NCBI RefSeq assembly: GCF_024006985.1
Contig: NZ_JAMXIB010000010.1
Location: forward strand, 1-64,000
DNA from: Robiginitalea marina
Lineage (GTDB): Bacteria > Bacteroidota > Bacteroidia > Flavobacteriales > Flavobacteriaceae
Direction: 5' to 3'
DNA: 64,000 bases
Each line of letters starts with the position of its first letter. The first letter of the stretch is position 1. The position numbers were made by a program, and so were the translations under genes. The notes under the pieces were generated by a model. That model did no database searches. It saw only the letters and a program-made list of their open reading frames with translations, and was not told the DNA's origin. Positions 9,188 through 26,851 of the stretch are shown piece after piece.

Positions 9188-9195
9188 TATATTTG
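9188..9195 (+). promoter_or_regulatory. -7 box and GGCGGCAA direct repeats
   Basis: TATATTTG is a perfect match to the Bacteroidota -7 consensus. Downstream in the leader, GGCGGCAA occurs at 9213 and 9233, 20 bp apart, the second ending five bases before the ATG at 9245. The repeats could bind protein or affect translation. Confidence 0.5.
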
Positions 9196-9244
9196 CTTTA
9201 TAACCTAAAAGTGGCGGCAACACATTAAATACGGCGGCAAGGAT

Positions 9245-9760: not shown

Positions 9761-10761
9761 TGAATATGGAGAATCTACTTGAAACTTATAGTGGTGTTCA
9801 AGAATGCCATTATAAAAATGAGCATTACTCTGTTCGAGATAATGGTGCTGTATTAAGACATCCTCGCAACAATAGAAGAACTCGACCAACAGACAATAAA
9901 TGGACCTTTGGAAGAGCAAACCCAAGAACTGGTTATCTAGATATAGCTTCAGTTCGAGTTCATAGAATAGTTGCAACAGCATTCCACGGAGAACCACCTA
10001 CAAAACAACATGTTGTAGACCATATCGACACAAATAAACAAAACAATCGACCTGACAATCTACGTTGGGTCACAAGATTAGAAAACGTATTACTCAACCC
10101 AATCACGTCAAGACGCATTGAAATTGTTTGTGGAAGTGTTGAAGCCTTTCTAGCAGACCCTTCAAAATTTCGGGACAAATTCCAAAACCCAAACCATGAA
10201 TGGATGTTTAGAGTTAGCAAAGAAGAAGCACTGACAAGCAAAGAAAGATTATTGGCTTGGGCAAAAAGCGATAAGCCATTACAAGGCGGAACTTTAGGTG
10301 ATTGGATATATAATAGAAGTTTGTCAAATGAATTTGACGAACCTTTAATAGAGAAATTAGAGTATGTAAATTCTCTATCTCCAAATGCTGTCCAAAAGGC
10401 GCAAAACTGGAAAACACCTAGTGAATTTCCACTTTGTCCTAATGAAAACTCATCTAATCCTATTATCAGGTATTTTGAAAATCTAAGTGTAGGTGAAGTT
10501 TTTTCTAAAAACCAATTTACGAGCTCAATTGTTGAAGATTTTGCAATGTCAAAAGACAAGGACATATTATGGATTTTGTGCAAAAGTGGTGATGAGCATT
10601 CAATTAAACCTTATTCTTTCGCAGAGATAACTTACCAAAGCAATGTTTTTGTTCATGAAAGTCTCGGAACGTTTTTCGAAAAAGTAGGCGCTGAGAAACA
10701 ATTTGCTCTAAAGCAAGGGCTTAAATGGTCTGGTGGTGACTCTATCGATGATTATTGTTAA
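9760..10761 (+). CDS. HNH endonuclease-domain protein
   Basis: About 333 residues from GTG at 9760 (overlapping the upstream stop by one base) or 331 from ATG at 9766. Residues about 15-105 resemble phage and intron HNH_3 nucleases: VHRIVATAFHG, then VVDHIDTNKQNNRPDNLRWVT, supplying the His, the HID and the N-x-x-D/N-L-R-W elements. The remaining 220 residues match nothing I know and may give target choice. Paired with an XRE protein, it could be a regulated defensive or toxic nuclease; a homing-type role is less likely because no intron or intein is present. Confidence 0.7.
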   Translation: MNMENLLETYSGVQECHYKNEHYSVRDNGAVLRHPRNNRRTRPTDNKWTFGRANPRTGYLDIASVRVHRIVATAFHGEPPTKQHVVDHIDTNKQNNRPDNLRWVTRLENVLLNPITSRRIEIVCGSVEAFLADPSKFRDKFQNPNHEWMFRVSKEEALTSKERLLAWAKSDKPLQGGTLGDWIYNRSLSNEFDEPLIEKLEYVNSLSPNAVQKAQNWKTPSEFPLCPNENSSNPIIRYFENLSVGEVFSKNQFTSSIVEDFAMSKDKDILWILCKSGDEHSIKPYSFAEITYQSNVFVHESLGTFFEKVGAEKQFALKQGLKWSGGDSIDDYC

Positions 10762-10777
10762 AAATAATTAATAAAGA

Positions 10778-11002
10778 ATGCCACGACCAATCATTTTTGG
10801 TGAAATAACAGGAATAAAAATAGGCCATTGGTTCCAAGGGCGCAAAGAGATGATGCCCACAAGCTTTCACAGAAACTGGGCAGCAGATATAGATGGAAAT
10901 GGAAGAGAAGGCGCAGCCGCCATTGTACTATCTGGCGGGTATGAAGATGACAAGGATTTAGGTGATGAAATTGTTTCTGATAATTATCATCATTTAATCT
11001 AG
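10778..11002 (+). pseudogene. truncated second copy of the SRA-HNH gene
   Basis: The first about 65 codons are nearly identical to the intact SRA-HNH protein (HWFQGRKEMMPTSFHRNWAA; IVLSGGYEDDKDLG). The frame then switches to unrelated sequence and stops after 74 codons. Half of the SRA domain and the entire nuclease are missing. Together with the Nudix remnant at 8510 it shows that the SRA-HNH/Nudix unit was once present more than once. Confidence 0.8.
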
Positions 11003-11194
11003 TTTACTTTAAAATCTTTGACTGTGGCAAAACCTAAAAAACTCAAAGTCATTTGTAAAAGGAATTTCAGAAAACTCAGAATTAGTAATCGATAACAAAT
11101 ACTGAGATTGACAATGGTGATTTATTATAGAAGAACTTAAAAGTCAATTTAGAAATAACACAAACGGGAAAATTGAACTCTGTAAATCTGAAAA

Positions 11195-12151
11195 ATGAAT
11201 AAATACCTTACTTTTTTGCTAGTATTAACATTGGCGCTTCAAACTGCTTATAGTAATAGTCTTAACAACCATTATAAAGAAATTTTTGAATGGAATGTAT
11301 TCATTCCCGATGGAAATGGTTATGTAAAGACAGATATAAATACGGACGGCATTTCAATTAATAATATTGGCGAACTGTTGGGATATAACACCTCCCAATT
11401 TTCAGCACATTTTAAATTTGATGACCATTCCATACAAGGAATCCTTTTTAAGGTTTTTACCACTGAGATTATTTGCGTTATTACAGATGATGGTGTTAAT
11501 AAACTCACTCAAAGTTTGGTAGATGACTATTTAAAAGACTTTGAATTTAACGAGTATTATGATGGTTATAAAATTGAATCTGAATTGGAAGAGGCAGTAG
11601 AAAAGAAGCTTTTGAGTCTTGAATATTTGAATGAGATATTTGATAAAAACCTTACCGATATAAATGGGTCTTTTGTAGCAGAAAAAATAGGATATAGGTT
11701 GTTTTTTAAAGATGGGTGGTTAAATGACTTTGCTACTTCAGATGGGTTAAATAAGTGGGCTAAATCTTGGAAAAATAATCAGCAAGAACTATATGGAAAG
11801 TATTTGGTTAGTGCTTCAATTAGATTTGGTGGAGATCAAGAATTAGTAAATTATTATATAAATACGCAAGCGAAGGCATTTACTCAGTTGCCCAATGGAT
11901 TTAGAAATGAATATGTTCAGTTATATAAGAACCAAGAATATGGAACATACAATTTTAAAATGATTGCTGTAGCTCATTACAATGAAAAAATGACGTTAAA
12001 TGAGTTCAAAATTCTCAATAAAGATGAATATGAAATCGATTCTGAATTTAATAGTCCTGATGGTTATAGGCGTACTACATATCGACTATTAAATACACTT
12101 TACACATTTGATCAGGATGGAAACTTAATCAATTCGTATCTGTCCAATTAA
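11195..12151 (+). CDS. secreted hypothetical protein
   Basis: 318 residues with a signal peptide (KYLTFLLVLTLALQTAYS). The mature protein has beta-rich N-terminal and mixed C-terminal halves. A segment around residues 85-115 (TTEIICVITDDGVNKLTQ) is echoed in the pseudogene just downstream (KPETILIITDDLVVKFLTQ), so the two are paralogues. No function is recognised. The following 160 bp to the pseudogene look non-coding. Confidence 0.6.
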   Translation: MNKYLTFLLVLTLALQTAYSNSLNNHYKEIFEWNVFIPDGNGYVKTDINTDGISINNIGELLGYNTSQFSAHFKFDDHSIQGILFKVFTTEIICVITDDGVNKLTQSLVDDYLKDFEFNEYYDGYKIESELEEAVEKKLLSLEYLNEIFDKNLTDINGSFVAEKIGYRLFFKDGWLNDFATSDGLNKWAKSWKNNQQELYGKYLVSASIRFGGDQELVNYYINTQAKAFTQLPNGFRNEYVQLYKNQEYGTYNFKMIAVAHYNEKMTLNEFKILNKDEYEIDSEFNSPDGYRRTTYRLLNTLYTFDQDGNLINSYLSN

Positions 12152-12314
12152 TTCAATAATAGAAGCATTCAGCATAAATTGATTAACTAAAGGTTTCCCT
12201 TGTCTAACTGACTGTTTATTAGCCTTCTGACAAAACACATCCCAAGACCTTTATTTAGTTCAATCTCAATTCAATTAGGCTATAATTCCTTTAATAAAAT
12301 CAAATTATCCTTCA

Positions 12315-12620
12315 ATGAGAATTAAACGTCTATTAATTACAATTCTAATGATCCCCATTCTTGGTTATGTTCAATAGAAAACCAAAATAGGAGAAAACAA
12401 ATTTGACGGTTCATTTAGCGTTTATAACAAATGGCTAGATGGCTATCTTTTGGTTTCAATTAAAATGTATGGTAAGAAGGTTGCCTTTTATTTAAAACCA
12501 GAAACCATATTAATTATAACAGATGATTTAGTAGTTAAATTCTTAACTCAGAATTATAATGAAATTATGATTGATCGTACCGAAATTACTACTCAAGAAT
12601 ATCATTCATTGAAAGAATAA
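12315..12620 (+). pseudogene. nonsense-mutated paralogue of the gene at 11195
   Basis: From ATG 12315 the frame encodes a signal-like leader (MRIKRLLITILMIPILGYVQ), hits TAG at 12375, then stays open for 80 codons to TAA at 12618. The part after the stop contains an ETILIITDDLVVKFLTQ segment homologous to the neighbouring secreted protein. A single point change therefore seems to have silenced a short exported protein. Reinitiation is possible but would lack the signal. Confidence 0.6.
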
Positions 12621-12635
12621 TAGCATCATCATTTT

Positions 12636-13133
12636 ATGCAGCCAAAAATTCGCCTTCTTTTTCTTTTAATTCTTATTGGTCAAACTACGTTCTCCTGTGA
12701 AGCATTCACTTCAGCAAAGGACACAATTCAAGGCAAAGTTGTAGGGATAGCAGATGGAGACACTTTTACAATGCTTCTGGACAACAAGACCACAGTCAAA
12801 GTAAGGTTAGCCAGCATAGATTGTCCAGAACGCAGACAACCATATTCAGCAGTAGCCACAAAGTTTACTTCCGATGCGATATTCAGTCGAAAGGTAACCG
12901 TTGTAGTGGATTCTAAAGACCGATATGGCCGTTCTCTTGGCTGGGTGTACTATGATGGTAAAAACCTCAACGAAGAGCTTCTAAATGCTGGGTTAGCCTG
13001 GCATTTCAGAAGGTATTCCAAGGATGAGAAACTGCAAGCCTTGGAGGATCAAGCTAGAGCAAATAAGGTTGGACTTTGGCAGGACAAGAATCCTGTTCCT
13101 CCATGGGATTGGAGGAGAGGTGTAAGGGATTAA
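12636..13133 (+). CDS. secreted staphylococcal-nuclease-like thermonuclease
   Basis: 165 residues. A hydrophobic leader with a possible lipobox (TTFSC) precedes the SNase domain at about residues 30-150. The calcium and catalytic elements are visible: DGDTF, the VRLASIDCPE strand with Arg and Asp/Glu, YGRSLGWVY with the second catalytic Arg, and a closing AxxxxxGLW helix. It is expected to degrade DNA or RNA outside the cytoplasm. It is the intact paralogue of the truncated gene at 3836. The minus-strand ATPase gene converges on it 24 bp away. Confidence 0.85.
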   Translation: MQPKIRLLFLLILIGQTTFSCEAFTSAKDTIQGKVVGIADGDTFTMLLDNKTTVKVRLASIDCPERRQPYSAVATKFTSDAIFSRKVTVVVDSKDRYGRSLGWVYYDGKNLNEELLNAGLAWHFRRYSKDEKLQALEDQARANKVGLWQDKNPVPPWDWRRGVRD

Positions 13134-13157
13134 ATTCACCTCTAGCAAATAAACAAT

Positions 13158-15560
13158 TTAGTTATATATTGACTCATATTCTGGTATGTCCTCTGACTCA
13201 ATTGTTATAAGAATTTGTTTGGTTAAATGTTTTGATCCAGCTATCCTGTTTGACTGGTTCTCGATTGTTTGTTCAAAAATATTTCTAGAAACTCTCCCAT
13301 TGCCAAAATTATAATCCTTTTCTTCAATTAACTTTTGAAAAAGAATGTGAAGTTTTTTTCTGGCCATATCAGAAACAGAATATTCTGAGTTTTTACTGAT
13401 TAATTCAAAAATTCTGAATAGTTCTTCGGGAGAATAATCTTGGAAGTGCAGATATCTATTGAATCTTGACTCCAACCCAGGATTACTTTCGATAAAGGAT
13501 CCCATTTCGTTGGGGTAACCGGCCACAATAACGGCTAACCTATCCCTTTCATCCTCCATTCTTTTTAACAAGGTTGCAACAGCTTCGGCCCCATAATCAT
13601 TTTGGCCATCTTTCTTTGTCAGCGAATATGCTTCATCAATAAATAACACACCATCCAAGGCCTTATCAACCACCCTATTTACTTTTGAGGATGTTTGTCC
13701 GACAAATCCCGCAATTAAGCCAGATCTATCAGTTTCGATAAGATGACCTTTTTTCAGAATCCCCAAGTGCTTATAAACTTTTCCTACAATTCGAGCCACT
13801 GTTGTTTTACCAGTCCCAGGAGAGCCAGTGAAAACCATGTGATAAGAAATATTTGGAACCTTCAGTCCTTTTTTAGATCGGGCTTTCTGTACCTCAATAA
13901 AATTTATGAGGGTCTTAATTTCACCTTTTATTTCATCAAGACCGATTAGTTTGTCCAATTCTCTAACAACATCATCGAGGGTTTCATCTTCTTTTGTCTC
14001 GGAAATCTTATATGTAGTATCTCTATCCTCTCCAAGAGGGTAATGAAGGGTTTGATATATCTGCTTCAGTTTATTTTCTTCCTCTTTTTCAATTATTCCA
14101 TCTGACTTTGCAATGATTGTAGCGAATCTATATATCACTGTTACGTATTCATCGAAAGATGAATGATTTAATATCTTCAGAATACCAGGAAGCGCAAAAT
14201 TTTTATCAATATTTTGGTCATCAATTTCACCTTCTGGACCGCTAATGGATGCCTTTATCGGGTTTTCTAATCTGGCTGTATTAGCGATACTTTTCAGAAC
14301 AGGTTCAAACATTTCGTTTTTAAATAAATTCACTATAAATTCATAATCCTTCTCCAAGTATTCATTGCCTTCCATTACAATATGACTCATAAGTAAGAGT
14401 CCTAACATTTCTACTCCCGTTTCATTAAAATTATTTGAATACAAGAGTTTAATCGTTTGAGCCAAATCAAAATAGACACATATAGGTATCAATTTCGATC
14501 TGTCATCGCCCTCTGGAGTACTAATATTATCAAGAAGACTTTTGTCCCTATTAAGCTTGAGAATTAGGCTTTCGATATCTTTTGAAACACTTTTTAGCAG
14601 ATTATGATACTCCCTAGTAAAGACTTCATCTGATGAACTTAATTTATTTGAAAAGAGTAGAGGAGTTTCTTTGCGTTCTGCGATGTCTTCTATAACAGAA
14701 ATTAATTCATCCATAGCTCCTGCTTTAGAAGTCATAATTGTAAGATTCAGATTATCCTTGGCCTGAAAAGTATATTCAGAATAAAGACAAATAGGGATTC
14801 TGGGATTATGATTAAATCTTCTATCTGGACCGCCAGACTTATTCACATATAAGTAGGTATAATCTAAGATTTCAGCGTCCTTAGGAACATTATCTGATTC
14901 ACGAAAATTGCTATTAAATGAGTCGGCATATAAACTATTATAAGAGAGGGCAGCAAAACGATTATTTCTCTTTAAAAGCAATCTATCCGGTAAAAAGAAT
15001 ATTTCTACATGAGAAAAAGAAATAGCTGGAATGTATACATTGGTTTGTAAGTAGTCATATGGAGAGGCTTTCAAAAACACTCCAGAAATGGCTTTTCTAT
15101 CAACAAGTGTGGCGGCGCCTGCGTGATACTTTGTATTATTAACAACCTCGCTTAACACCACCTGCCACTTTTTATTGGACTTTTTAAGGGGTATAATAGC
15201 TTCTCCTAATTTTTTTGAAGTTCTTTTCAAGTCCTCATCATCATACCATAGCCTTACAGTCTTTCGTATTCTATCCTTTTTAGATAACCATTTGTTCCAG
15301 AAGTAAATAGGCACTAAAAGAATGATAGAGACAGCTATTATTATTGGTATGTGATCCTGACCATAAAGCAGTGCATTAATCAGAATTGCAGTATAAATAA
15401 GGATTGAAAGTATTAGGCCTAAACTCGTTTGGAGTTTAGATCTGCTTACCTTTTCATTTAAATCTTTAATGAAGTCCCTATATTCAGAATCATTTAAAGC
15501 ATTAAAATTCTTAATTGTCATTACTCTAAATACCAGTTGAAAAGGGTTAACACTCTTCAC
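13158..15560 (-). CDS. membrane-anchored CbbX/SpoVK-type AAA+ ATPase with TerB-like segment
   Basis: 800 residues. Two transmembrane helices lie at about residues 42-88. A long middle region follows, with a TerB-like stretch near 480-500 (AKSDGIIEKEEENKL). The AAA+ module begins near 530: GLDEIKGEI, Walker A GSPGTGKTTVA at about 576-586, the pore-loop region, Walker B VLFIDEAYSL near 640, and the arginine-finger segment GLESRFNRY. This belongs to the CbbX/SpoVK subgroup of protein remodellers. It is the last gene of the leftward HXS gene set, 111 bp after hxsC, so a role in remodelling or export of the HXS product is plausible but unproven. Confidence 0.8.
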   Translation of the reverse strand: MKSVNPFQLVFRVMTIKNFNALNDSEYRDFIKDLNEKVSRSKLQTSLGLILSILIYTAILINALLYGQDHIPIIIAVSIILLVPIYFWNKWLSKKDRIRKTVRLWYDDEDLKRTSKKLGEAIIPLKKSNKKWQVVLSEVVNNTKYHAGAATLVDRKAISGVFLKASPYDYLQTNVYIPAISFSHVEIFFLPDRLLLKRNNRFAALSYNSLYADSFNSNFRESDNVPKDAEILDYTYLYVNKSGGPDRRFNHNPRIPICLYSEYTFQAKDNLNLTIMTSKAGAMDELISVIEDIAERKETPLLFSNKLSSSDEVFTREYHNLLKSVSKDIESLILKLNRDKSLLDNISTPEGDDRSKLIPICVYFDLAQTIKLLYSNNFNETGVEMLGLLLMSHIVMEGNEYLEKDYEFIVNLFKNEMFEPVLKSIANTARLENPIKASISGPEGEIDDQNIDKNFALPGILKILNHSSFDEYVTVIYRFATIIAKSDGIIEKEEENKLKQIYQTLHYPLGEDRDTTYKISETKEDETLDDVVRELDKLIGLDEIKGEIKTLINFIEVQKARSKKGLKVPNISYHMVFTGSPGTGKTTVARIVGKVYKHLGILKKGHLIETDRSGLIAGFVGQTSSKVNRVVDKALDGVLFIDEAYSLTKKDGQNDYGAEAVATLLKRMEDERDRLAVIVAGYPNEMGSFIESNPGLESRFNRYLHFQDYSPEELFRIFELISKNSEYSVSDMARKKLHILFQKLIEEKDYNFGNGRVSRNIFEQTIENQSNRIAGSKHLTKQILITIESEDIPEYESIYN

Positions 15561-15608
15561 CCAAAATCCAATGATTTCTCTATTTTGATTAGGCTCAGGA
15601 GTTTAGAT

Positions 15609-15630
15609 TTTTATCGAAATTTTGATAAAA
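15609..15630. other. inverted repeat between hxsC and the ATPase gene
   Basis: TTTTATC and GATAAAA flank an eight-base loop. It is AT-rich and weak as a terminator, and may instead be a regulatory site separating expression of the ATPase from hxsDBC. Confidence 0.3.
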
Positions 15631-15671
15631 TATTTGAGTGAAACTATCGAGAATAGAGAAAGACAACCGGG

Positions 15672-16847
15672 CTATTCTGCCAATGTATTTTCCTCAATAG
15701 GGTTTACTTTGAAAGCTTTAATATATTCACTATGCTTTCTTGTAGAAGATTCAAACAATCCTCCACATTTATCTAATACGGCACAATGCTGACATTCGTC
15801 TAAAAAGATATTTTTCCAATCGGATATAGAGTTTTTATTGTAGCACCATAAATTTTCCGGCAATAGGCAGAGTGGCGTATTATATATCCATGCATTAACT
15901 CCTCTATCATTCAAAAAATGTACTGATTTTTCCAGTTCATCCATATAATTGATAGGATCAATCCAGAGTTCAGATAAGTTGGCAATAGTAAATCCTGTAA
16001 TCTCCAATCCCATAAAAACAACCTGATCAACAAATGTTAGATTTCTATAAATAAACTTTGATAGTTTATATAATCGTGGGGTAGTGATTTTGTGTAAGAC
16101 AACCCTAATTTCAACCCTTATGCCATATCTCTTCAAATTATAGATTCCCATCAAAGTTTGATAGTAAGCATCTTTACTTTGTACTACATAATCATGGATT
16201 TGATAAAAATCACTGTATAGAGGTACCCCTAGCATTATTCTAGGGTTATTTATCTTAGAAAGTCTCTCAGCAAGATGATTGAACGCAAATAATCGTCCAT
16301 TCGTTAATATATGAATCTCAGTATTGGGTAATTCCTTTTTTATTAACTCAAGTAATTCAAAAAATAACAATCCCAAAAGCATGGGTTCACCTCCCGTTAA
16401 TATTAACTCGTGGCAATTTTTAGGGATGAGTGGTATTAATTTTTTATGTATTTCATGTAAAGCAGCAATGTCCTCCCTATCCTTCGGAGGTTGTGAACAC
16501 ATTAAACAATTGCTATTACATCTCTCTGTTAGCAATAGATAATTATGGCTAGAATTTATCCTGTATAGAGTTTTTATGTTTCCATTTTGACCTATTAAAA
16601 GAATATCATCTTCTGAAATATGGGACAAGTCTTTAATCTTGTAAACCCCAGTTCCAGAATAAATATTAGTATTTAAATCATGAGATGTGGTCAAAATAAC
16701 ATCCGAGTCATATTTACTATTAACCGGATAATCATCATCCAATATCAAACAATAATTAGGGTTATTAAGTTTGTATTTATACCGAGTGGCCTTAAGTACT
16801 AACGGTTCATTAATATTTATGGGAGTACCCTTCGTTCTTAGTTTCAT
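15672..16847 (-). CDS. hxsC: HXS-system radical SAM protein HxsC
   Basis: 391 residues. The radical SAM cluster motif is C-NSN-C-LM-C (CxxxCxxC) near residue 112, preceded by a beta-rich N-terminal domain of about 105 residues. ILTGGEPMLLG gives the SAM-binding GGE motif. Cysteines near the C-terminus (CQHCAVLDKCGG) can bind an extra cluster. HxsC proteins always accompany HxsB and are thought to modify the His-Xaa-Ser peptide, the chemistry being unknown to me. The start lies 2 bp after the hxsB stop. Confidence 0.85.
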   Translation of the reverse strand: MKLRTKGTPININEPLVLKATRYKYKLNNPNYCLILDDDYPVNSKYDSDVILTTSHDLNTNIYSGTGVYKIKDLSHISEDDILLIGQNGNIKTLYRINSSHNYLLLTERCNSNCLMCSQPPKDREDIAALHEIHKKLIPLIPKNCHELILTGGEPMLLGLLFFELLELIKKELPNTEIHILTNGRLFAFNHLAERLSKINNPRIMLGVPLYSDFYQIHDYVVQSKDAYYQTLMGIYNLKRYGIRVEIRVVLHKITTPRLYKLSKFIYRNLTFVDQVVFMGLEITGFTIANLSELWIDPINYMDELEKSVHFLNDRGVNAWIYNTPLCLLPENLWCYNKNSISDWKNIFLDECQHCAVLDKCGGLFESSTRKHSEYIKAFKVNPIEENTLAE

Positions 16848-16849
16848 GA

Positions 16850-18343
16850 TTATTTAATCCAGCTTTCTAGTATATCACTAGCCTCTATGTCCCTATCCAA
16901 TAATTCCAGCAAATAGCGAATTACTTCCATGTTTTTATTGCAAAATGCACTATTTGGTCTGAAACCGTAGATATCACCCTGAGTTGCCCAATTGTGAACT
17001 GGATCCGCTCCACAATACACTTTAAAGGCGCATTCTGAGCATCCGGCTAATGTCTCATTTGCCCATACCTGAGATATTCTATGGGTCTTCTCTCCATATA
17101 TAATCTCTTCATAAGTGTTTTCTAGCAAATGACCAAGCCTAAATGAATAGTCCTTTTGTTCAGCTAGCATTCGACTCTCATCAGTTGCATATACTGCGCC
17201 ATCATAATTAAAAACAATTACCCCATTAATTAATCCAGCTGGAGATTGCAGGTCTACATATGGAATATTGAAGGGAGTTAATATTTTGGTTAGAATAATT
17301 TTGCTGAAATCCTCGGTGAAAAAATGACCTTCTTTATTTATTTCAATAATTCTTTTTAATGCTTTTTTATAAAAATGGAGGAACTCCTCTGTTTTATACC
17401 TGTTTTTCTCTGTCCTTAAGGCAAATCCATATGGGCTTATATTTCTCAAAAATATTCCAGAAAACCCTTGTTGAAAGTATTCATTTACAATCTCTACAGG
17501 ATATTTAAGAGAATGGGAACTGGTTGTCATCAAAGCAGAAACTTGATCATGCCCTAGAATTTCTCTCGATAATTCAATCCCTTTTATAGTCAAGTCATAG
17601 CTACTACAATTAGGTTTATTCCTATTCTTATCATGGACAAATTTAGGTCCATCTAAAGAGGTTGAGATTAAGACTTGATTTGTTTTACAATACTCTAGTA
17701 TTTCTTCATTTATTAAAGCCAGGTTTGTGCAAATAACATAATTAATGTTCTTACCATAAATAGGAGCAAGTTCCTGAGCCTTTTTTATTGCATATTTAAT
17801 GTTCTCAAAAGCCAAAAGAGCTTCGCCTCCTTGAAACTCCATAGTAACATTCGGATTCGGCGATTTCATCATAAACTCAATTCCCTTATCTATGGAATTT
17901 AAGCTCATGTCATATTTCTCCTTGTTTTGAGTTACTCTTGAAACCTGACAGTAAGCGCATGTGTGCTCACACCTTAGTGATATGACGAAAATATGTAGGG
18001 AGGTCAACCGATCAAGAAAAAGCTTCTTTGTTCTGTATCTTGTTGCGATTAAATCGATATTTGGAGAATATATCTCTTCAGAGATAAAATGATTGGAAAT
18101 TAAATCCTGGTATAATTCAGGATTCTCATCTTGAGATAATTCCTTTTTTACGATTGATTCGTATGTACCAGAAGGAACAAAGAGATAATCTCCTATCTCA
18201 TTTATTAGCACCTCTCTATTTTTATTTATTCTATGAAAATTAAAGGGCATTAAGAAGTAATTGCCCTTAGACTGATTGTAGTGATCTAAGTCCCTAAACT
18301 GCCTGAAATCTTTCCTCTTCTTTTCAAAAAGTTGCTTATTCAT
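16850..18343 (-). CDS. hxsB: HXS-system radical SAM/SPASM maturase HxsB
   Basis: 497 residues. An N-terminal region of about 100 residues (probably the peptide-recognition part) precedes the radical SAM core with CEHTCAYC near residue 125, EFQGGEALLAF as the GGE motif, and a SPASM-type C-terminal cluster region (GCSECAFKVYCGADP, later FC). It should use a 5'-deoxyadenosyl radical to modify the HxsA precursor. The gene overlaps hxsD by 4 bp and touches hxsC, so the three are one transcription unit. Confidence 0.87.
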   Translation of the reverse strand: MNKQLFEKKRKDFRQFRDLDHYNQSKGNYFLMPFNFHRINKNREVLINEIGDYLFVPSGTYESIVKKELSQDENPELYQDLISNHFISEEIYSPNIDLIATRYRTKKLFLDRLTSLHIFVISLRCEHTCAYCQVSRVTQNKEKYDMSLNSIDKGIEFMMKSPNPNVTMEFQGGEALLAFENIKYAIKKAQELAPIYGKNINYVICTNLALINEEILEYCKTNQVLISTSLDGPKFVHDKNRNKPNCSSYDLTIKGIELSREILGHDQVSALMTTSSHSLKYPVEIVNEYFQQGFSGIFLRNISPYGFALRTEKNRYKTEEFLHFYKKALKRIIEINKEGHFFTEDFSKIILTKILTPFNIPYVDLQSPAGLINGVIVFNYDGAVYATDESRMLAEQKDYSFRLGHLLENTYEEIIYGEKTHRISQVWANETLAGCSECAFKVYCGADPVHNWATQGDIYGFRPNSAFCNKNMEVIRYLLELLDRDIEASDILESWIK

Positions 18344-18696
18344 GGCATTTTTATACCTAGTGGATCATCAAAATCCCCCTTCGGTTCTTCATCATATTCA
18401 CCATGAGAAAAGGCTTTAGCGATTATCAACTCTCTTATTGTTTTGGTTTCATTACTAACAATATCCCGTAAGTTAAAATCGATAAAATCTTGATTCAATT
18501 TTGTTCTTATTTCTTCAAAGTCTTTATCGTTCAAAGGCTCTTTAGCTATCAATTCAATTATGAAATAATGATCATCATTAATATTGATAGTGATTTCAAA
18601 ATCATCAGAATACCAATAAAGGCATTTTATGATCGAATTTTTTGAATATACCCTTGAATCAAGCTTAAATTGAAGAGAGGAGAGTTTATCCGACAT
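18340..18696 (-). CDS. hxsD: HXS-system protein HxsD
   Basis: 118 residues, soluble. The C-terminal half has the family signature FNLRDIVSNETKTIRELII followed by AKAFS. HxsD proteins are small partners found only with the two HXS radical SAM enzymes; by analogy with other radical SAM peptide systems it may deliver the precursor, but that is inference. It starts 4 bp after hxsA and overlaps hxsB by 4 bp. Confidence 0.82.
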   Translation of the reverse strand: MSDKLSSLQFKLDSRVYSKNSIIKCLYWYSDDFEITININDDHYFIIELIAKEPLNDKDFEEIRTKLNQDFIDFNLRDIVSNETKTIRELIIAKAFSHGEYDEEPKGDFDDPLGIKMP

Positions 18697-18700
18697 TTAA

Positions 18701-18985
18701 CTAAATTGAACTAGAAGCATGCGAAGCATGTGAAGCGTGAGATCCATGTGAAGAGTGAGAACTATGGGAAGCGTGGCTCGCCTGAGTGCTCTCCAGCGAA
18801 TAATTATTGGTCTCGGAAGTTGATAGAATCAACTGTGGTTTTGATTGTTTATTAGATATAACCTCTTCGGATTTAGGCTGATCAATTTCATTGTGGTTTG
18901 AAGCAAAACCAACTGAACCCAAAACTGCTAATGAGGTGGCAACGACTGAGGCAACTTTTTTTGATAAATTCGACTCCTTTTTCAT
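18701..18985 (-). CDS. hxsA: His-Xaa-Ser repeat precursor HxsA
   Basis: 94 residues from the Met at 18985, chosen because MKKESNLSKK starts a signal-like leader; a frame from 19018 adds 11 residues. Residues about 9-29 are hydrophobic (VASVVATSLAVLGSVGFA), a probable signal peptide. The C-terminus is seven consecutive His-Xaa-Ser triplets (Xaa is Ala, Ser, Ser, Gly, Ala, Ala, Ala) at about residues 71-91, ending SSI. This is the substrate type after which the HXS system is named. The repeat offers imidazoles for crosslinking or metal binding and serines for glycosylation. Confidence 0.88.
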   Translation of the reverse strand: MKKESNLSKKVASVVATSLAVLGSVGFASNHNEIDQPKSEEVISNKQSKPQLILSTSETNNYSLESTQASHASHSSHSSHGSHASHASHASSSI

Positions 18986-19102
18986 CTTGAAAAGATTAAA
19001 TGATTGGAAAAAGTACAAATATTAGCTCACCTTAACAATGATAAATATCATCTTAACTTCTAACTTACACTCTTTAAAACGCAAACATTTAAGGCTTTAT
19101 TA

Positions 19103-20767
19103 CTATTCTAAAGATTGCTTAATAACTTTTTTAATAGCGAATCCATTGCCCTCTTTAATTGTGATCATATTTAAATCATTTACAATACTAAAAGCCTTCT
19201 TATATCTTTCTTGGAATATCTTCTCATTAAAATAATCCTTCCACAAGAAATAAACACTCTTTTTATCCGTCAGTTTTCTAATGTCTTCTGAGACCAAATA
19301 GTTGCTCACGATATTGAAATCTATAATAGGCAACTTTTCATCACAATAATTTTGTAAAAGAATTGTCTGATCTGTTATGACTACCGCCTCATTAGGTTCA
19401 GTCAATTCAATAAGTTCCATAATAGGGGTAATTCTTTCTTTAAATTCTATGTTAATTAAATCCTGTCTTGACTCTTGAGTTAAATAGAAAAGAAAAGATA
19501 GAATAATTAATCCAACAGAATAAATAGATATAACCGTATGAATCTTATTTAATCGGGTTCTTATGAAAAGAAATGTCTTATAAAGCACATAACCTACAAT
19601 AATGGAGAAAAAGGGAGATAATAAATTAATATGCCTTAAGGATTCAAAAGGATTTACGACTTCACTCCTTACAAAATAATAACTTCTATGATGGATAGTG
19701 TTTATAAAGAGAAGAGATATGAAAACCAATAGTGGATATAATAGTAATGGGTTTTTTTTAGAATCATTTAGTAATAAAATGATTCCCAAAATGGCCAGCG
19801 GAGAAAAAACAAAAAACCAACTGAAATTGGAAAATCCTCTTATAAACATAAAAAACAACGGCTTAAAGAATTTAAATTGAAATGGATTTCCCAAAGCATA
19901 TTCACTTTCCATCTCTAAACTAGCACCAATATTTAAAGCATAGAAATAATAAACAATTAAGCCACAACAGAATACCAAAAAAGGCAGTAATCCCTGGGGT
20001 TTTTTATTTTCCTTTTGTCTTCTTTGAAAAAATCTTATCAGAATAAATAAAACAGGGAATGATATAATAATAATACTTTCCCTTTTAAAGTGAATGGCTA
20101 GCATGTAAACAGCTACTAATGACAGGAAAAGCAATGTGCTTTTTTTAGAATTGTTTTTCTCAAAATACATGAGAAATAGTAATAGAGATAAAACAATAAG
20201 AGCACTTGCACTTGTCTCAAATAGTGAAGAGGAATGGAAGCTATTAAAAGCTGGTGTTGTAATGAAAACCACCGAAGAAAAAAGTCCCAAAATAGAACTA
20301 CTAAATATCTTGGAGCAAATAAAGTAGATGCCAATTAAGGACATAAATGCAAACACAAGGTTAAGTAATGAAATGTTCATTGGGCTATAACCGGACACCT
20401 CATTAATTAACCATAAAATCGAAGGCAATCCCATAAGATTACTGGGATAAACAGAACGTATTTCGCATTGCGAAAGTGAACCAATTCCGCATGAGGTGAC
20501 AGAAAATGTGAAATCCAGATTTTGAAAATTATAAACTAGAAATCGTGATGATGCGTTGATCAAATAGGAATCTTCATATTCCAAACCTTTAAAGAAGGTA
20601 AAATCAAAAGGGATCTTAAAGAGAATAAATAATATTAATAGAAATAATAATTGAAGAATATTACCATATTGAATGCCATTTAGTTTTAATTCCTGTCTCA
20701 GACTAAGGAAAAGAAGTGCTAATGTTGAGCCGAAAAGGAGATTAAGGAAAATTAAGGCGATTGTCAT
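19103..20767 (-). CDS. GT-C-like integral membrane glycosyltransferase candidate
   Basis: 554 residues with about eleven hydrophobic helices in the first 430 and a soluble C-terminal part. The first large external loop has GLEYEDSYL, the acidic Asp/Glu motif position used for catalysis in GT-C enzymes of the PMT/ArnT type. Such enzymes move a sugar from a polyprenyl carrier to protein or lipid on the outer face of the membrane. It lies directly upstream of hxsA on the same strand (117 bp to the chosen start), so the Ser-rich HxsA peptide is an attractive acceptor; no direct evidence supports that. Confidence 0.6.
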   Translation of the reverse strand: MTIALIFLNLLFGSTLALLFLSLRQELKLNGIQYGNILQLLFLLILFILFKIPFDFTFFKGLEYEDSYLINASSRFLVYNFQNLDFTFSVTSCGIGSLSQCEIRSVYPSNLMGLPSILWLINEVSGYSPMNISLLNLVFAFMSLIGIYFICSKIFSSSILGLFSSVVFITTPAFNSFHSSSLFETSASALIVLSLLLFLMYFEKNNSKKSTLLFLSLVAVYMLAIHFKRESIIIISFPVLFILIRFFQRRQKENKKPQGLLPFLVFCCGLIVYYFYALNIGASLEMESEYALGNPFQFKFFKPLFFMFIRGFSNFSWFFVFSPLAILGIILLLNDSKKNPLLLYPLLVFISLLFINTIHHRSYYFVRSEVVNPFESLRHINLLSPFFSIIVGYVLYKTFLFIRTRLNKIHTVISIYSVGLIILSFLFYLTQESRQDLINIEFKERITPIMELIELTEPNEAVVITDQTILLQNYCDEKLPIIDFNIVSNYLVSEDIRKLTDKKSVYFLWKDYFNEKIFQERYKKAFSIVNDLNMITIKEGNGFAIKKVIKQSLE

Positions 20768-20815
20768 CTAATTAAAACATAATATTTAATGGAGGATTTT
20801 ATTTAAAATAAAGAA

Positions 20816-21646
20816 ATGTCACTTACAGGAAAAAATATATTAACGATAGACTGCGAAGATTTTTTAGAATTACCCGCATTCAAAGATCTCAAGCACAATG
20901 CTGACTTAAATAAGATGATCGATAATCAAGTAAGTGCTATCCTCAAAGAACTTCATGATGCTAATGACACAAAGGCTACCTTTTTTATTGTAGGCGAAAT
21001 TGCAAAACGAAATCCCGATTTGGTAAAACGTATTAAGGAGAAAGGCCATCAATTAGGATCTCATAGTCTAAAACATAAAAAGGCTTACAAACTAACCAAA
21101 TCTGAATTTGAATCAGATCTTAAAGAATCATTGCAGCAAATTTCTAAAGCCAGTGGCGAAGTTGTTGAATGCTATCGAGCTCCAATGTGGTCTTACAAAC
21201 CAAAGATGAAATGGTTTTGGGATGTTTTATCTAAAAATAAAATAAAATATGATTCCAGTATTTTTCCTATTAGTAGTATGATGTATGGCAATCCTAAAGC
21301 TCTAAGAATTATTCACCGAATCAATGGCATAGTTGAAATACCTCCTTCAACATTCCGGATACTTGGTATAAATATACCATTTAGCGGAGGGATATATTTT
21401 AGAATATTACCTTATGGGATTATTAAATATTTCATTAGAAGATTACGGAAGAAATGTAATCAACCAATAATAATGTATTTTCATCCATGGGAGTTGGACC
21501 CAAAACTTGTGAAAATTCGAAAAATCAGCCCTTTGTACAAATTTGTCTTATATCATAATACTAAAAATTCAATGAAAAAATTTCGAAAGCTTATCAATGA
21601 TTTCGATTTCACCTCTATTGAAGAATATTCCGAAATCAGTGTTTAA
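20816..21646 (+). CDS. polysaccharide deacetylase (NodB, exosortase-locus type)
   Basis: 276 residues. The NodB fold elements are clear: TIDCEDF near residue 12 (catalytic and metal Asp), ATFFIVGEIA, HSLKHKKAY as the H-S-xx-H metal motif near residue 84, YRAPMWSYKP, and the C-terminal YFHPWELDP. This HPWE ending is characteristic of the deacetylases found in exopolysaccharide and exosortase loci. There is no signal peptide, so action on a cytoplasmic or lipid-linked N-acetylated sugar is likely. It is divergent from the GT-C gene (48 bp between starts) and followed by the FAD gene 8 bp later. Confidence 0.82.
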   Translation: MSLTGKNILTIDCEDFLELPAFKDLKHNADLNKMIDNQVSAILKELHDANDTKATFFIVGEIAKRNPDLVKRIKEKGHQLGSHSLKHKKAYKLTKSEFESDLKESLQQISKASGEVVECYRAPMWSYKPKMKWFWDVLSKNKIKYDSSIFPISSMMYGNPKALRIIHRINGIVEIPPSTFRILGINIPFSGGIYFRILPYGIIKYFIRRLRKKCNQPIIMYFHPWELDPKLVKIRKISPLYKFVLYHNTKNSMKKFRKLINDFDFTSIEEYSEISV

Positions 21647-21654
21647 AGATTCTG

Positions 21655-23073
21655 ATGGAAAAATTTAAGCACGTAATTATTGGCGCTGGAGTTACCGGAT
21701 TAGTAACTGCAATTGAACTTGGCAAAACCTATCCGGGTGAAGTTTTACTAATAGAAAAGGAAAACGAGGTTGGAGGTCTTTTAAGAACAATCGAAAGAAA
21801 CGGATTCAGATATGATATAGGATCGCATATAATTCATGATGAAGTCGAGCCGGAAATTCTTAAGTATGTAGACCAAGTATCCGGTGGCCTTTTAATAAGA
21901 AAGAAGCGCATTGGTAAATTAGTTTTTCGCAAATCATACATTAGATATCCATTAAAGTCTATAAACTTTCTATCTGGACTGGGTTTAAGGGAATCAATTT
22001 CCTGTACTTTTTCCTTAATATATAGTAGAGTTAGAAAGATTTTTACTCCTCGAAATAAAAACATCGATCTTGGATACGAAAAAGAGTTAAAAGGAAATGT
22101 AGGTGATAGGGCTTACAAAATATTCTATCGCCCTTATGCAATAAAACTCTGGAATTGCAACCCAAATCTTATCTCGAGTTCTGCTATTAAGAGACAATCT
22201 GCAATGGTGGGCCCTTTAACTCTTATCAAGCAATTCTTTCGTTCCTTAATTACAAAAAACACGGATAGATACTATTATTATTTGGAGGGAGGAGTAGGTA
22301 AGTTTCCAGAAGGTCTTGAGAAAATTGCAAATCAAAATGGGGTTAAGATTTTAAAATCAATTAAAGATTTCCGCTTAGACCAAAATAAATTGATATTGAA
22401 CATAAATGACAGTGATAATGTAATTGAATACGACTATTTAGTATCCACAGTTCCAATTTCCGCCATTATTAATAAGCTTCATTTTAAGGAGAAGGAAATA
22501 GACCTAGTAAACTCTGTAAAATTTAGAGGCCTTAAGCTTGTTTTTATTCATACAGATGAGGAGGTTTTAATTCCGGGTGAATGCTTTTACCTACCCGAAA
22601 CAAAATATGCCCTCGGGCGTGTTTCTATTCCCAAAAGGTTTTCAAACTCAATGAATCCAAGTGAGAAAATCACAGGAATTATTTGTGAAATACCCTGCTC
22701 TCCAAATGATAATATTTGGGATTTAACAACTAAAGAGGCTGTAAAGTTATGTTATCAAGACCTAATTGAAGCTGGTCTATTAAGGAAGAAGAATTATAAA
22801 CAATCTGAATATGATTTTCACCTTAATGTGAAGGATATTTATCCAATGTATTACATAAACTGGAGGCAAAATGTGAAGTCAATACTGAAATTAATGGCAG
22901 AGAAGTATCCTAACATTTACATTGCGGGAAAGTCAGGCTTTTTCATGCAATCAAATATGGACAGATCTATAAGAATTGGCAGGATGCTTGCATCGAACCT
23001 ACAAGAAGGAAAATCTGTTAATGATTGGTATCAAAATCTAGATTATTTTCATGACTTAATACTAAGAGATTAA
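21655..23073 (+). CDS. FAD-dependent oxidoreductase (amine oxidase/UDP-galactopyranose mutase-like)
   Basis: 472 residues. The N-terminal Rossmann motif is IIGAGVTGLVTAIEL, followed by LLIEKENEVGGLLRT, the second FAD-contact segment. YDIGSHIIHD follows, as in protoporphyrinogen-oxidase-like and mutase-like enzymes of sugar-lipid pathways. A C-terminal IYIAGKSGFFMQSNMDRSI completes the FAD site. The substrate is unknown. Placed 8 bp behind the deacetylase and divergent from the GT-C gene, it probably helps make the sugar or lipid donor used by that enzyme. Confidence 0.7.
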   Translation: MEKFKHVIIGAGVTGLVTAIELGKTYPGEVLLIEKENEVGGLLRTIERNGFRYDIGSHIIHDEVEPEILKYVDQVSGGLLIRKKRIGKLVFRKSYIRYPLKSINFLSGLGLRESISCTFSLIYSRVRKIFTPRNKNIDLGYEKELKGNVGDRAYKIFYRPYAIKLWNCNPNLISSSAIKRQSAMVGPLTLIKQFFRSLITKNTDRYYYYLEGGVGKFPEGLEKIANQNGVKILKSIKDFRLDQNKLILNINDSDNVIEYDYLVSTVPISAIINKLHFKEKEIDLVNSVKFRGLKLVFIHTDEEVLIPGECFYLPETKYALGRVSIPKRFSNSMNPSEKITGIICEIPCSPNDNIWDLTTKEAVKLCYQDLIEAGLLRKKNYKQSEYDFHLNVKDIYPMYYINWRQNVKSILKLMAEKYPNIYIAGKSGFFMQSNMDRSIRIGRMLASNLQEGKSVNDWYQNLDYFHDLILRD

Positions 23074-23476
23074 AATTATCATTTGCAAATAAGATATAGT
23101 CTCGATGAAATATTATCTTCAAGACAGATAATTTTGGAGTTTCCTTTAGTTAGCATTTGATCAAATATTCTTTTTGATTACCATACCTTAGTTTGTTCTT
23201 TGGATAAAATATTATTAAGACTCTAAGGATGTCAATGTTCATTTTATTTTAGGTTTTTTTAAAATGATGGTTTGTAAAGAATCAAAACAATCTGAAGGAT
23301 GTAGCTTCAAATCAAGCCAAAAAAGTATGATTATTATTAGACAGTTGGATACGGAAAACCGTATTTGCCGCATTATTAGCAATCTAAATGCCCAACTAAA
23401 CCTATTATTGAAGCCTGCTCTAATTTTGCCGGGCGAATTTTTTAATCGGCAATTCAAATCCAATCTTATTCTTCAC
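23074..23476. other. intergenic, no gene seen
   Basis: AT-rich region between the convergent FAD oxidoreductase gene and the secreted-protein gene. The only sizeable forward frame (23264) runs into the antisense of the next gene and lacks coding character. I see no strong terminator. Confidence 0.4.
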
Positions 23477-24418
23477 TTATTCAATGCATCTGAGTTTTCT
23501 CTGAAATATGTCCCGAAGTACAATGTCATCAAAGTCATATTGCCTATCGGTGCCTTGGATTCGAATAATTTCAATCGGGGATTTGACTAATCTTGCCATT
23601 TCCTCTTTTGTTAGCCTTCCAAATAATCTGAAACCATAACAATCTATATCTCCTCTATGGTAGAATGTAATGATGTCGCCATTTTCAAGCTTCACCTTTA
23701 CAAAGGATAGGTTATTGGAGTATGGGCTTGTGCAGCCAACATCATAGCGGGTCTCAAAAGACACCAAATATTCTTCTCCAACTTTTGACAGCCTGAGAAT
23801 TAGCCCAGAATTTCCCTGCCCAAATTCATTATGAAGATTATAAGCTGGCGATATTTTTACAATCTTTCCGTCGAATTTATCTATCTCATTAACTTCATAC
23901 TGGCAGTTATTTTTAAAATCAAGCTGTCGTTTTTTTTTTCGATCCAATTTAGCATCCTCAATAGCGAGCCTGTCCAAACTATCTTCCCTAACTACTCGAG
24001 CATTAATTTGCTCAATTTCATTATTTATGCCTGGAGTCTCATCAATAAAGATATATTTAAGGTAGCAGTTTTGGCAATCTTTAAAGTCCACTAAATATAA
24101 TCTGTAACTGTAGATAACTATTCCTTTTACTTCAACTATATCCCCCTTCTTAATGGAATCATATCTTGTGCTTTTATCGCCAATCACCCTTTCTAAATAG
24201 GGTTTTCCTTTCACTTTGACTCTCACAGGACTGTCAAATTTACGTATGGCCTGTGCTGATAATAGGAAAGGTGAAACGAATATTGATATTTGTATTAGAG
24301 CTGATAAAACAGCTTTAAAACTACTCCTAAAATTGGGTTGATAGGTGGTTCTTTGTAATAAGAAACTCCTATTATTTCTTTTACTATATCTCCTGAAAGG
24401 CAAAATGCAGGTCTGCAT
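23477..24418 (-). CDS. exported protein, unknown function
   Basis: 313 residues. A basic N-terminus of about 35 residues precedes a hydrophobic segment (ALIQISIFVSPFLLSAQA) that looks like a signal peptide with AQA cleavage. No later Met is available, so the long leader is either real or the start is non-ATG. The middle has an SH3-like stretch (KKGDIVEVKGIVIYSYRLYLVDF) and a Lys-rich helix. Four cysteines lie in the mature part (CQNC, CQYE, VGCTS). I recognise no family. Confidence 0.5.
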   Translation of the reverse strand: MQTCILPFRRYSKRNNRSFLLQRTTYQPNFRSSFKAVLSALIQISIFVSPFLLSAQAIRKFDSPVRVKVKGKPYLERVIGDKSTRYDSIKKGDIVEVKGIVIYSYRLYLVDFKDCQNCYLKYIFIDETPGINNEIEQINARVVREDSLDRLAIEDAKLDRKKKRQLDFKNNCQYEVNEIDKFDGKIVKISPAYNLHNEFGQGNSGLILRLSKVGEEYLVSFETRYDVGCTSPYSNNLSFVKVKLENGDIITFYHRGDIDCYGFRLFGRLTKEEMARLVKSPIEIIRIQGTDRQYDFDDIVLRDIFQRKLRCIE

Positions 24419-24457
24419 TAATTCAATTAATTTTGATAATTTCTATAAACTTCATAT

Positions 24458-24889
24458 TTATTCTTTCAAAAAATAGTGCCCATAAATCTGCCAACCAAGA
24501 CTGGCGAGTGAAATTACAATGGCAACTATAGAGAGCCACCAAGTATTGGCCTTTGCCCAGGAGGCCTTATAGTCCCAATTAGCTTTCTTTCGCTCTTTTT
24601 CAATCTTGACTTCGTGTTGTTTTAACCAAGTCTCAAAGCCCAATTCCTGAGCCCTATAAAACTCCTTTTCCTTTATAATGTATGACTGAGATTTGGGAGG
24701 GAAATCTACCCGAATTAAGCCTAAAGAAGAAAGCTTTACAATAGCTTTTTTAACATCCTCCTCAGTATGCAGCGCCTCCATTCCTTTGAGGCGAACATTA
24801 TAATACCTTCGCTTATCTTCTTCTACACTGTTAGCCAAGTAATCAAATACTATTCTTAAAACTGCCTCCATGCTTTTATAAATTACCAA
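24458..24889 (-). CDS. winged-helix protein with C-terminal membrane helix
   Basis: 143 residues. A winged-helix-like domain occupies about residues 1-75 (ILRIVFDYLA-type helix, VKKAIVKLSSLGLIRVDFP and a wing ending SYIIKEKEF). A charged helix follows, then a transmembrane helix at about 115-137 (WWLSIVAIVISLASLGWQIYG). It is the third DNA-binding-like protein of this island with a C-terminal membrane anchor. The first 7 bp overlap the end of the small gene upstream, so both are co-translated. Confidence 0.55.
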   Translation of the reverse strand: MVIYKSMEAVLRIVFDYLANSVEEDKRRYYNVRLKGMEALHTEEDVKKAIVKLSSLGLIRVDFPPKSQSYIIKEKEFYRAQELGFETWLKQHEVKIEKERKKANWDYKASWAKANTWWLSIVAIVISLASLGWQIYGHYFLKE

Positions 24890-25065
24890 AGAGCCTCTTC
24901 CAAAACCCTTGCTTTTCTGAAGCGTCCTTCTTCCTCTGCTTTATAAGTGATGTGCCATCCCCTCTTAAATGCGAAGTCTCCCATTTTATTTAGATGCAGG
25001 GAGTGGTCTATAGTATACTTTAGTCTTTGTTGCGTTAACCTTTCAACATGTTTGATTGTTTTCAC
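24883..25065 (-). CDS. small basic hypothetical protein
   Basis: 60 residues, rich in Arg, Lys and His, with no signal or membrane segment. The end overlaps the membrane-anchored winged-helix gene by 7 bp, supporting its reality and a shared role. I do not recognise it. An antitoxin-like or adaptor function is conceivable but only by size and position. Confidence 0.45.
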   Translation of the reverse strand: MKTIKHVERLTQQRLKYTIDHSLHLNKMGDFAFKRGWHITYKAEEEGRFRKARVLEEALW

Positions 25066-25094
25066 AATACACCCTCTGAAGTGATTTAGAGGGG

Positions 25095-25586
25095 TTATTT
25101 AGCGAAAACCCTATTCAGGGTTTTTTTAGTTAGTCGAAAGTAGCTTGAAGCTCCATCGTTATTTAGAACAAAACATGTAACAACACCCTTTTGCCTGTTT
25201 CTATCTGTTGTTATTTCGGTTATTATTTTAGCATCCCCAATCTCTAATTCTCTACGATTCGGATTGCTTAAACCTTCATAGAGAAAGTTGTACAAATACT
25301 CAAGTTCCTGCTCATTTGCATAAAAATAGATACTCCTGATATCTATTATTGAATCTGAATAATAACTACCCAAATACTCCTCATTTTGATAATATAGCCT
25401 ATACCTTCTGCCTTTTTCTGTATCAATATATTCAAGGGTCACAGGCTGCTGCCAACCATCGTTCTTAAATGCACTTCCTACAATAGTCGCCTCTTTAAGA
25501 ACAGTAGTTATACCCACTTGAGCTCTTAAAAGGGTTACACCGCTAAATAATGTTAAAACGATTAACAAAACTCTCAACATATCCAA
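25095..25586 (-). CDS. secreted protein, paralogue 1 of 3
   Basis: 163 residues with a signal peptide (VLLIVLTLFSGVTLLRAQ). Near residues 95-115 lies the shared core LEYLYNFLYEGLSNPNRRELEIGDAK-type segment found in the next two genes, followed by a C-terminal LTKKTLNRVFAK. All three end in a hydrophobic-Lys/Arg-hydrophobic turn (RVFAK, RLFGKK, KLFGK). The fold is unknown and no catalytic motif is seen. The upstream paralogue ends 3 bp before this start. Confidence 0.6.
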   Translation of the reverse strand: MDMLRVLLIVLTLFSGVTLLRAQVGITTVLKEATIVGSAFKNDGWQQPVTLEYIDTEKGRRYRLYYQNEEYLGSYYSDSIIDIRSIYFYANEQELEYLYNFLYEGLSNPNRRELEIGDAKIITEITTDRNRQKGVVTCFVLNNDGASSYFRLTKKTLNRVFAK

Positions 25587-25589
25587 TTT

Positions 25590-26039
25590 CTATTTCTTTC
25601 CAAATAGTCTATCAAGCCAATTTTGATTTAACAAGAAATAAGTATCTGGTTTCCCAACTTGAAACACATGAACTGCAACCTGTCTGGACAAAAATCTATT
25701 TGTCATAAGAGTTGATTCACCAACTTTAAGCGTCCTTCGTTCTTCGCTTTTTAATCCATCTCGAATGAAATTATACAAAAATTCTAATTCCTGTGGAGTA
25801 GCGTAAAATCCAAAACTCTGTAAATCGATAAATGTATTATACTCGGAGTTTCTATATGTAATAACATAGTAATCCTCACCATTAATCTTATACAAACGAA
25901 GTTCGGGGAGCCCATCTATTTTACCATTCCCTGTTCCAATTAAAGTTCCCTTTCTACCAGTCACCACCTCACCAATTTGGGCAGAACTTAAATAGGAGGA
26001 CAATAAAGCTAATAATAGCAATAGTATATTGGACCGCAT
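25590..26039 (-). CDS. secreted protein, paralogue 2 of 3
   Basis: 149 residues with a signal peptide (ILLLLLALLSSYLSSAQ). It shares YATPQELEFLYNFIRDGL and RRTLKVGES with its neighbours, and ends LDRLFGKK. Tandem arrangement and co-direction point to duplication of one ancestral gene. Function is unknown; an exported location is the only firm statement. Confidence 0.6.
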   Translation of the reverse strand: MRSNILLLLLALLSSYLSSAQIGEVVTGRKGTLIGTGNGKIDGLPELRLYKINGEDYYVITYRNSEYNTFIDLQSFGFYATPQELEFLYNFIRDGLKSEERRTLKVGESTLMTNRFLSRQVAVHVFQVGKPDTYFLLNQNWLDRLFGKK

Positions 26040-26047
26040 AAGTTCTA

Positions 26048-26482: not shown

Positions 26483-26851
26483 GGATGCTTATATTTGACA
26501 GGGAATCGAAAGTGAATCTACTCAATGCACTTTTAAAAATCTATGACAATAATCACGGACATCAAAGAGGAAAACCGTAATTGACATAATCTAATAGCAA
26601 GTATGAATTGTCTTTCTTTAAAATAATTAGGACTTTCTTCAAATACTAATCGACAAAGTGACTGTATTTAGTTTCAAAGCCAGGAGCTCTGTCATACCCG
26701 TTACCTATTATAATTTGTCGGTTCATCCGGCTGGAAATTTGTCATAAGTAATAGATAAACTATCTATTAATCCAAGGATGCAATCCACTCATCGCATTTA
26801 CTGGGATTTTATCAGGGATTATCTAATATTTAAGGGGTTAAAGAATTTTTA
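26483..26851. other. divergent intergenic region
   Basis: AT-rich, with no gene. It separates leftward and rightward gene sets and should contain both promoters, but I could not place convincing -33/-7 pairs or operators. Confidence 0.35.

Follow-up and report, generated by a model that had tools for sequence, protein, structure and literature searches.

Introduction

The His-Xaa-Ser (HXS) system, reportedly described by Haft and Basu, is represented in NCBIfam by the families HxsA/HxsA2, HxsB, HxsC and HxsD. It figures only as a predicted system in the literature searched, where no description of its product chemistry or purpose was found. ArnD and ArnT act in lipid-A tailoring, and their acceptor is not a peptide. 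We analysed a stretch of 64,000 nucleotides from Robiginitalea marina (contig NZ_JAMXIB010000010.1, positions 1 to 64,000; hereafter the window), in which an hxs operon adjoins three glycan-type genes, encoding a GT-C-like membrane glycosyltransferase, a NodB-family deacetylase and an FAD protein. An earlier note, made from the sequence alone, had proposed an extended HXS locus made of these genes and of a nearby AAA+ ATPase gene.

Compared with the HXS system, the window has all four components, contiguous and with HxsB, HxsC and HxsD over the cut-offs, but its HxsA scores below the cut-off and the three glycan-type genes are joined to the operon. Its cassette resembles the ArnD/ArnT and NaxD/FlmK lipid-A modification systems in combining a deacetylase devoid of a transmembrane segment with a putative integral-membrane GT-C-type transferase; unlike them, the cassette adds a flavoprotein similar to UDP-galactopyranose (UDP-Galp) mutase and a link to an operon resembling those for ribosomally synthesised and post-translationally modified peptides (RiPP-like), and it lacks an ArnC/FlmF2-type polyprenyl-phosphate sugar transferase. 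The NodB protein shares the NodB and DUF3473 architecture of the XrtA (exosortase A) polysaccharide deacetylase but reaches only 237 bits with TIGR03006, under the equivalog cut-off of 276, and no exosortase was seen in the cassette. Similarly, the FAD protein has the FAD-binding fold of UDP-galactopyranose mutase and PRK07208 but is distant from them in sequence and under all equivalog cut-offs. No description of HXS with GT-C, NodB and FAD partners was found in the literature searched, and the novelty of these partners, a guess in the earlier note, is likely.

Results

Seven genes are conserved as a single block in two genomes

The window cassette was compared with locus L003, from a Winogradskyella metagenome-assembled genome (MAG), which encodes the closest relative of the window HxsB (89% identical); the comparison covers these two genomes. 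L003 matches the window in the order and orientation of seven genes, those for FAD, NodB, GT-C, hxsA, hxsD, hxsB and hxsC (Table 1). Nucleotide similarity between the two forms a single block (15698-23071, 73.6% identity), which stops at hxsC on one side and at the FAD gene on the other. Protein identity is 57-89% over the seven genes, with 57% for GT-C, and non-synonymous divergence (dN) is 0.06-0.31. Synonymous divergence (dS) is estimated at about 2-3 for FAD, NodB and HxsC and 1.9 for GT-C; it is lower for the short genes of HxsA and HxsD and was not computable for HxsB. Synonymous sites are near saturation and the proteins are under purifying selection; therefore, HXS and the three glycan genes appear to have been maintained together. 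Deep divergence, together with a gene content that is fixed inside the block and fully changed outside it, argues that the seven genes were kept together by selection; in a comparison of two genomes, selfish co-travel on a cassette is a possible alternative. In conclusion, two genomes share the seven genes as a single conserved block, whose divergence speaks for joint retention under purifying selection and against a recent joint transfer. The extended locus of the earlier note thus stands in part: GT-C, NodB and FAD recur with hxsADBC in L003, and the AAA+ ATPase gene lies outside the block.

Table 1. Positions of the features discussed, in the window unless another locus is named.
Feature	Position	Strand	Evidence or remark
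tRNA-Arg(CCG)	454..526	+	3' end 514-526 = attL
Integrated mobile element carrying the cassette, 37.2 kb	527..37764		att repeat, recombinase, GC, empty site in relatives
Exported staphylococcal-nuclease-like protein (SNase)	12636..13133	+	PF00565 94.6 bits
SpoVK/EccA/CbbX-like AAA+ ATPase	13158..15560	-	PF00004 (AAA), PF17866 (AAA_lid_6); N-terminal hydrophobic segments
hxsC, radical SAM maturase	15672..16847	-	TIGR03977 362.5 bits, cut-off 267.9
hxsB, radical SAM/SPASM maturase	16850..18343	-	TIGR03978 574.5 bits, cut-off 370
hxsD	18340..18696	-	TIGR03976 79.5 bits, cut-off 50
hxsA precursor	18701..18985	-	leader, motif and triplets in sequence; HxsA2 33 bits
Inverted repeat ATGATATTTATCAT, 12 nt, then TAATATTTG (-7-like box)	19038..19051	-	putative hxsA promoter/operator
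GT-C-like polytopic membrane glycosyltransferase	19103..20767	-	PMT_2 sub-threshold, 11 hydrophobic segments, EYEDSY
NodB-family deacetylase with DUF3473 (XrtA-type)	20816..21646	+	PF11959 (DUF3473) 125 bits, PF01522 (Polysacc_deac_1) 70 bits, both over cut-off
FAD protein, UDP-galactopyranose mutase/PRK07208-like	21655..23073	+	PF01593 (Amino_oxidase), PF13450 (NAD_binding_8), over cut-off
Tyrosine recombinase (integrase) of the element	36306..37574	-	PF13102, PF00589 over cut-off
attR copy CTAGCGGGGCTAC of the tRNA 3' end, 13 bp	37752..37764	+
SNase genes adjoining hxs operons	L004 12754-13413; L020 11636-12352; L018 12030-12566; L008 4180-4911

The cassette is carried by a tRNA-integrated element

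The seven-gene cassette is cargo of an element integrated at tRNA-Arg(CCG), with its own recombinase and a duplication of the tRNA 3' end as att site. The GC content is 0.31-0.40 inside the element and 0.53-0.60 outside, and in three relatives of the genus the tRNA-Arg gene runs straight into the sequence found here after position 37764, defining the empty site. A further copy of the tRNA end, 15 bases long and located at 37944, is part of a host tandem repeat.

The hxs operon and the HxsA precursor

The order hxsA-hxsD-hxsB-hxsC proposed in the earlier note was confirmed, as were the positions on the minus strand, where the four genes abut or overlap. HxsB, HxsC and HxsD exceed the curated NCBIfam cut-offs, and HxsC has a CxxxCxxC motif (CNSNCLMC) and a cluster of Cys at its C-terminus. 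HxsA is recognized by its anatomy rather than by the family model (33 bits with HxsA2, 48 needed): its 94 residues comprise a signal-like leader (MKKESNLSKKVASVVATSLAVLGSVGFA), a KPQLILS motif and seven His-Xaa-Ser triplets (HAS HSS HSS HGS HAS HAS HAS), and its gene adjoins hxsD. The leader and the seven triplets were thus read as the note had them, in spite of the family score. The start of hxsA is likely the ATG at 18985 and not the TTG at 19018.

HxsA is built in the same way at other loci: after the signal-like leader come a short hydrophobic-basic motif (KPxLVLKLN in Bacteroidota) and the repeats. In about 10 HxsA proteins, including seven from Bacteroidota that cluster together, these are followed by a PG_binding-like C-terminal domain, a label read from sequence and, at three loci, also taken from record annotation. 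The signal-like leader and these C-termini make it probable that the HxsA product is exported, and the anatomy across loci would place it in the envelope. The PG_binding-like domain is absent from HxsA of the window and L003 and present in the Bacteroidota clades that neighbour them in the HxsB tree; this anatomy allows for a sugar standing in for the missing domain.

The glycan-type genes

The GT-C-like protein (554 residues) is encoded upstream of hxsA on the same strand. From its topology and an acidic motif we infer a GT-C enzyme: EYED, at residues 63-66 within a conserved EYEDSY, follows the second of the 11 hydrophobic segments. A profile of the protein gave no match to solved structures. 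The NodB protein, which has no signal or transmembrane segment, and the FAD protein both have Pfam matches over cut-off, and residues 5-272 of the latter, its N-terminal half, align to the UDP-Galp mutase 4dsg (E 1.2e-14). The arrangement described in the earlier note, with a GT-C-like gene directly upstream of hxsA and divergent deacetylase and FAD oxidoreductase genes, therefore holds. As a candidate ArnD/ArnT-type module it would combine a deacetylase over cut-off with a GT-C partner assigned from topology and motif.

The glycan-linked form is a variant of one HxsB clade

A search of 84,980 species genomes turned up six loci with close relatives of HxsB. The census of about 28 further HxsB loci covered chromosomes, plasmids (Bacteroidota, Proteobacteria, Cyanobacteria and Spirochaetes), a Leptospira phage and a Patescibacteria contig; L005, L030, L035 and L038 are short or truncated, and L037 and L038 were compared with the other loci by clustering only and not in the neighbour census. 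Glycan genes are found at two of about 30 HXS loci, the window and L003, which form one clade of the HxsB tree with 100/100 support. None of the about 28 other loci, from several phyla, has homologues of GT-C, NodB or FAD nearby; HXS linked to glycan genes is therefore a variant that belongs to a single clade. The recurrence at HXS loci by which the earlier note proposed to judge the flanking genes was not observed as a general feature, for the glycan genes or for the AAA+ ATPase gene, and a general link between HXS and glycan genes was rejected.

GT-C homologues were absent from 149 relatives, 296 genomes of the order and 72,556 plasmids; among the relatives searched, GT-C occurs only together with HXS. 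The FAD protein had no match at E 1e-40 in any other of 99 relatives, hxsB, the GT-C gene and the AAA gene are absent from nine relatives of the genus, and neither GT-C nor HxsB was found in the viral contigs searched. Further HXS loci are rare in Flavobacteriaceae and Bacteroidota (1-2 matches per 150-400 genomes). HxsB is present in 328 plasmid records, 304 of them from Klebsiella, and the majority of HXS plasmid records (262) are typed as conjugative.

The region upstream of hxsA

Between the GT-C gene and hxsA, the window and L003 align poorly; the exception is a 15-base stretch that includes ATGATATTTATCAT and is identical in both. The distance from this stretch to a -7-like box ending in TTTG is equal in both, and a shared stretch of at least 14 was obtained in 0 of 300 shuffles. 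Because of this conserved stretch and the equally spaced box, hxsA probably has its own promoter.

The full 14-bp palindrome, ATGATAWWTATCAT, occurs twice in the 3.25-Mb genome. It was observed at 19038-19051 in the window and, in L003, at 9106-9119 (upstream of hxsA) and at 5063-5076 (just after the FAD gene). We take it to resemble half-sites of the CRP/FNR family (TGAT-N4-ATCA); control of hxsA by oxygen would suit radical SAM enzymes. It is not found upstream of hxs genes at other loci and was rejected as a general HXS operator.

Neighbouring genes and other genes of the element

The AAA+ ATPase gene predicted downstream of hxsC is present, with AAA and AAA_lid_6 domains and N-terminal hydrophobic segments. 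It lies outside the conserved block and is absent from L003. No full-length counterpart was found at the about 28 other HXS loci (generic AAA matches aside), in 149 relatives or on plasmids. The ATPase is probably a neighbour and not part of the system, and its inclusion as an HXS component, made in the earlier note, was rejected on these two grounds.

The SNase gene comes after the AAA gene, on the opposite strand. Transposition and generic mobile-element genes aside, SNase is the commonest extra gene family at HXS loci beyond the core: it is found directly after hxsC in L004 and L020, near hxsC in L018, upstream of hxsA in L008, and farther away in L021 and L023. In L004 and L020 the C-terminus of the SNase is Cys-rich and excalibur-like. 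An exported SNase is a possible general partner of HXS in several phyla. Relatives carry about 15 SNase genes per 60 genomes, and chance adjacency in chromosomes is therefore small; SNases are common on plasmids, which weakens the plasmid cases. The window SNase resembles ordinary SNases found in its genus, and L003 lacks it; it was therefore rejected as part of the cassette.

The element also carries an SRA-HNH (type IV restriction-like) gene (5481-6359) that overlaps a NUDIX gene (6346-6732), and apparently decayed part-copies of these genes at 10778-10972 and 8506-8805. Two lipoproteins encoded at 29069-32842 are built of many repeats, which we take to be DUF285/BspA-like. Two stretches near the integrase (33166-34596 and 35421-36293) hold genes without a Pfam match, possibly for replication or mobilisation. 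No known defence system was recognized, PADLOC matches being weak and generic. In relatives, the tRNA-Arg region (surroundings of L057 and L058) holds different extra DNA, so that the site may be an integration hot spot. Beside the L003 cassette (13715-21306) we observed a seemingly separate peptide-export set, read from sequence: a vitamin-K-epoxide-reductase/thioredoxin-like protein, a small GG-leader-like peptide, a C39-peptidase-type ABC transporter and the start of an HlyD-like gene.

Discussion

Our preferred reading, held with about even confidence, is that the locus is a mobile, RiPP-like His-Xaa-Ser cassette whose hxsADBC genes have gained a fixed partner, a glycan module of three genes that is ArnD/ArnT-like and acts at the envelope. 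HxsA would be expressed from a promoter of its own; in the cytoplasm its His/Ser repeats would be modified by HxsB and HxsC, assisted by HxsD, and the signal-like leader would take it across the inner membrane. A polyprenyl-linked sugar would be deacetylated and tailored by NodB and the flavoprotein, and the GT-C enzyme would put it on the exported product or on the surrounding envelope; the AAA+ ATPase and the SNase would be neighbours outside this seven-gene mechanism. The persistence of the glycan genes beside HXS in a distantly related copy suggests that the peptide or the nearby cell surface may be sugar-decorated.

Several points weigh against this reading. The block is seen in two genomes only, one of them a MAG, and the about 28 other loci have none of its glycan genes. 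The GT-C protein scores 23 bits with PMT_2, under the Pfam cut-off of 26.1, so that its assignment is made at the level of the fold, and a structure prediction from the two-sequence alignment gave an unusable pLDDT of 39, which leaves the family unproven. The seven-gene block has no ArnC-like polyprenyl-phosphate sugar transferase or synthase. Finally, GT-C and hxsA seem to be served by separate promoter regions, so that they may not be co-transcribed, and the sugar is not tied to HxsA itself.

One alternative, which narrows the preferred reading to the model of the earlier note and which we consider unlikely, is that GT-C glycosylates HxsA itself after export, on Ser of the repeat or of the preceding Ser/Thr-rich stretch. 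HxsA is short, Ser-rich, probably exported and tightly co-conserved with GT-C, and a sugar could serve as anchor in place of the PG-binding domain of neighbouring clades; however, HxsA of L008, L013, L015, L018 and L020 also lacks this domain, yet these loci have no GT-C. Moreover, GT-C enzymes with a deacetylase partner, as in ArnD/ArnT, act more often on glycolipids, and an acceptor role of HxsA is without support.

It is also doubtful that the glycan genes and HXS are independent cargo sharing one mobile cassette, with no functional link. The location in a mobile element, the recombinase near the L003 cassette and the presence of HXS on plasmids and phage among unrelated neighbour genes agree with such independence. 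Against it stand the conserved orientation, the absence of GT-C elsewhere in the genomes and plasmids searched, and the near-saturation of synonymous sites in seven genes whose surroundings have been replaced entirely.

Modification of lipid A or another envelope glycolipid in the manner of ArnD/ArnT, for self-protection from the modified peptide or to change a peptide-binding surface, is rather unlikely in our estimation, and fits the data about as well as glycosylation of HxsA. A deacetylase with no signal or hydrophobic segment and a GT-C enzyme are the layout of ArnD/ArnT and NaxD/FlmK, and joint inheritance fits an immunity function, but toxicity of HXS products is without support, most HXS loci lack such a module and the cassette has no ArnC-like gene. 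Improbable, finally, is the most specific proposal, in which His-Xaa-Ser peptides modified by radical SAM enzymes leave the cell interior and receive, from a GT-C enzyme dedicated to them, a deacetylated, mutase-tailored sugar that replaces the PG-binding domain of HxsA in neighbouring clades.

HXS is a widespread mobile system, found on plasmids, including the Klebsiella records, and in a Leptospira phage. In one clade HXS is locked to an envelope-glycan module and devoid of the PG-binding domain; this combination suggests a role for the modified peptide on the cell surface or outside it. The seven-gene set is a small unit with testable chemistry.

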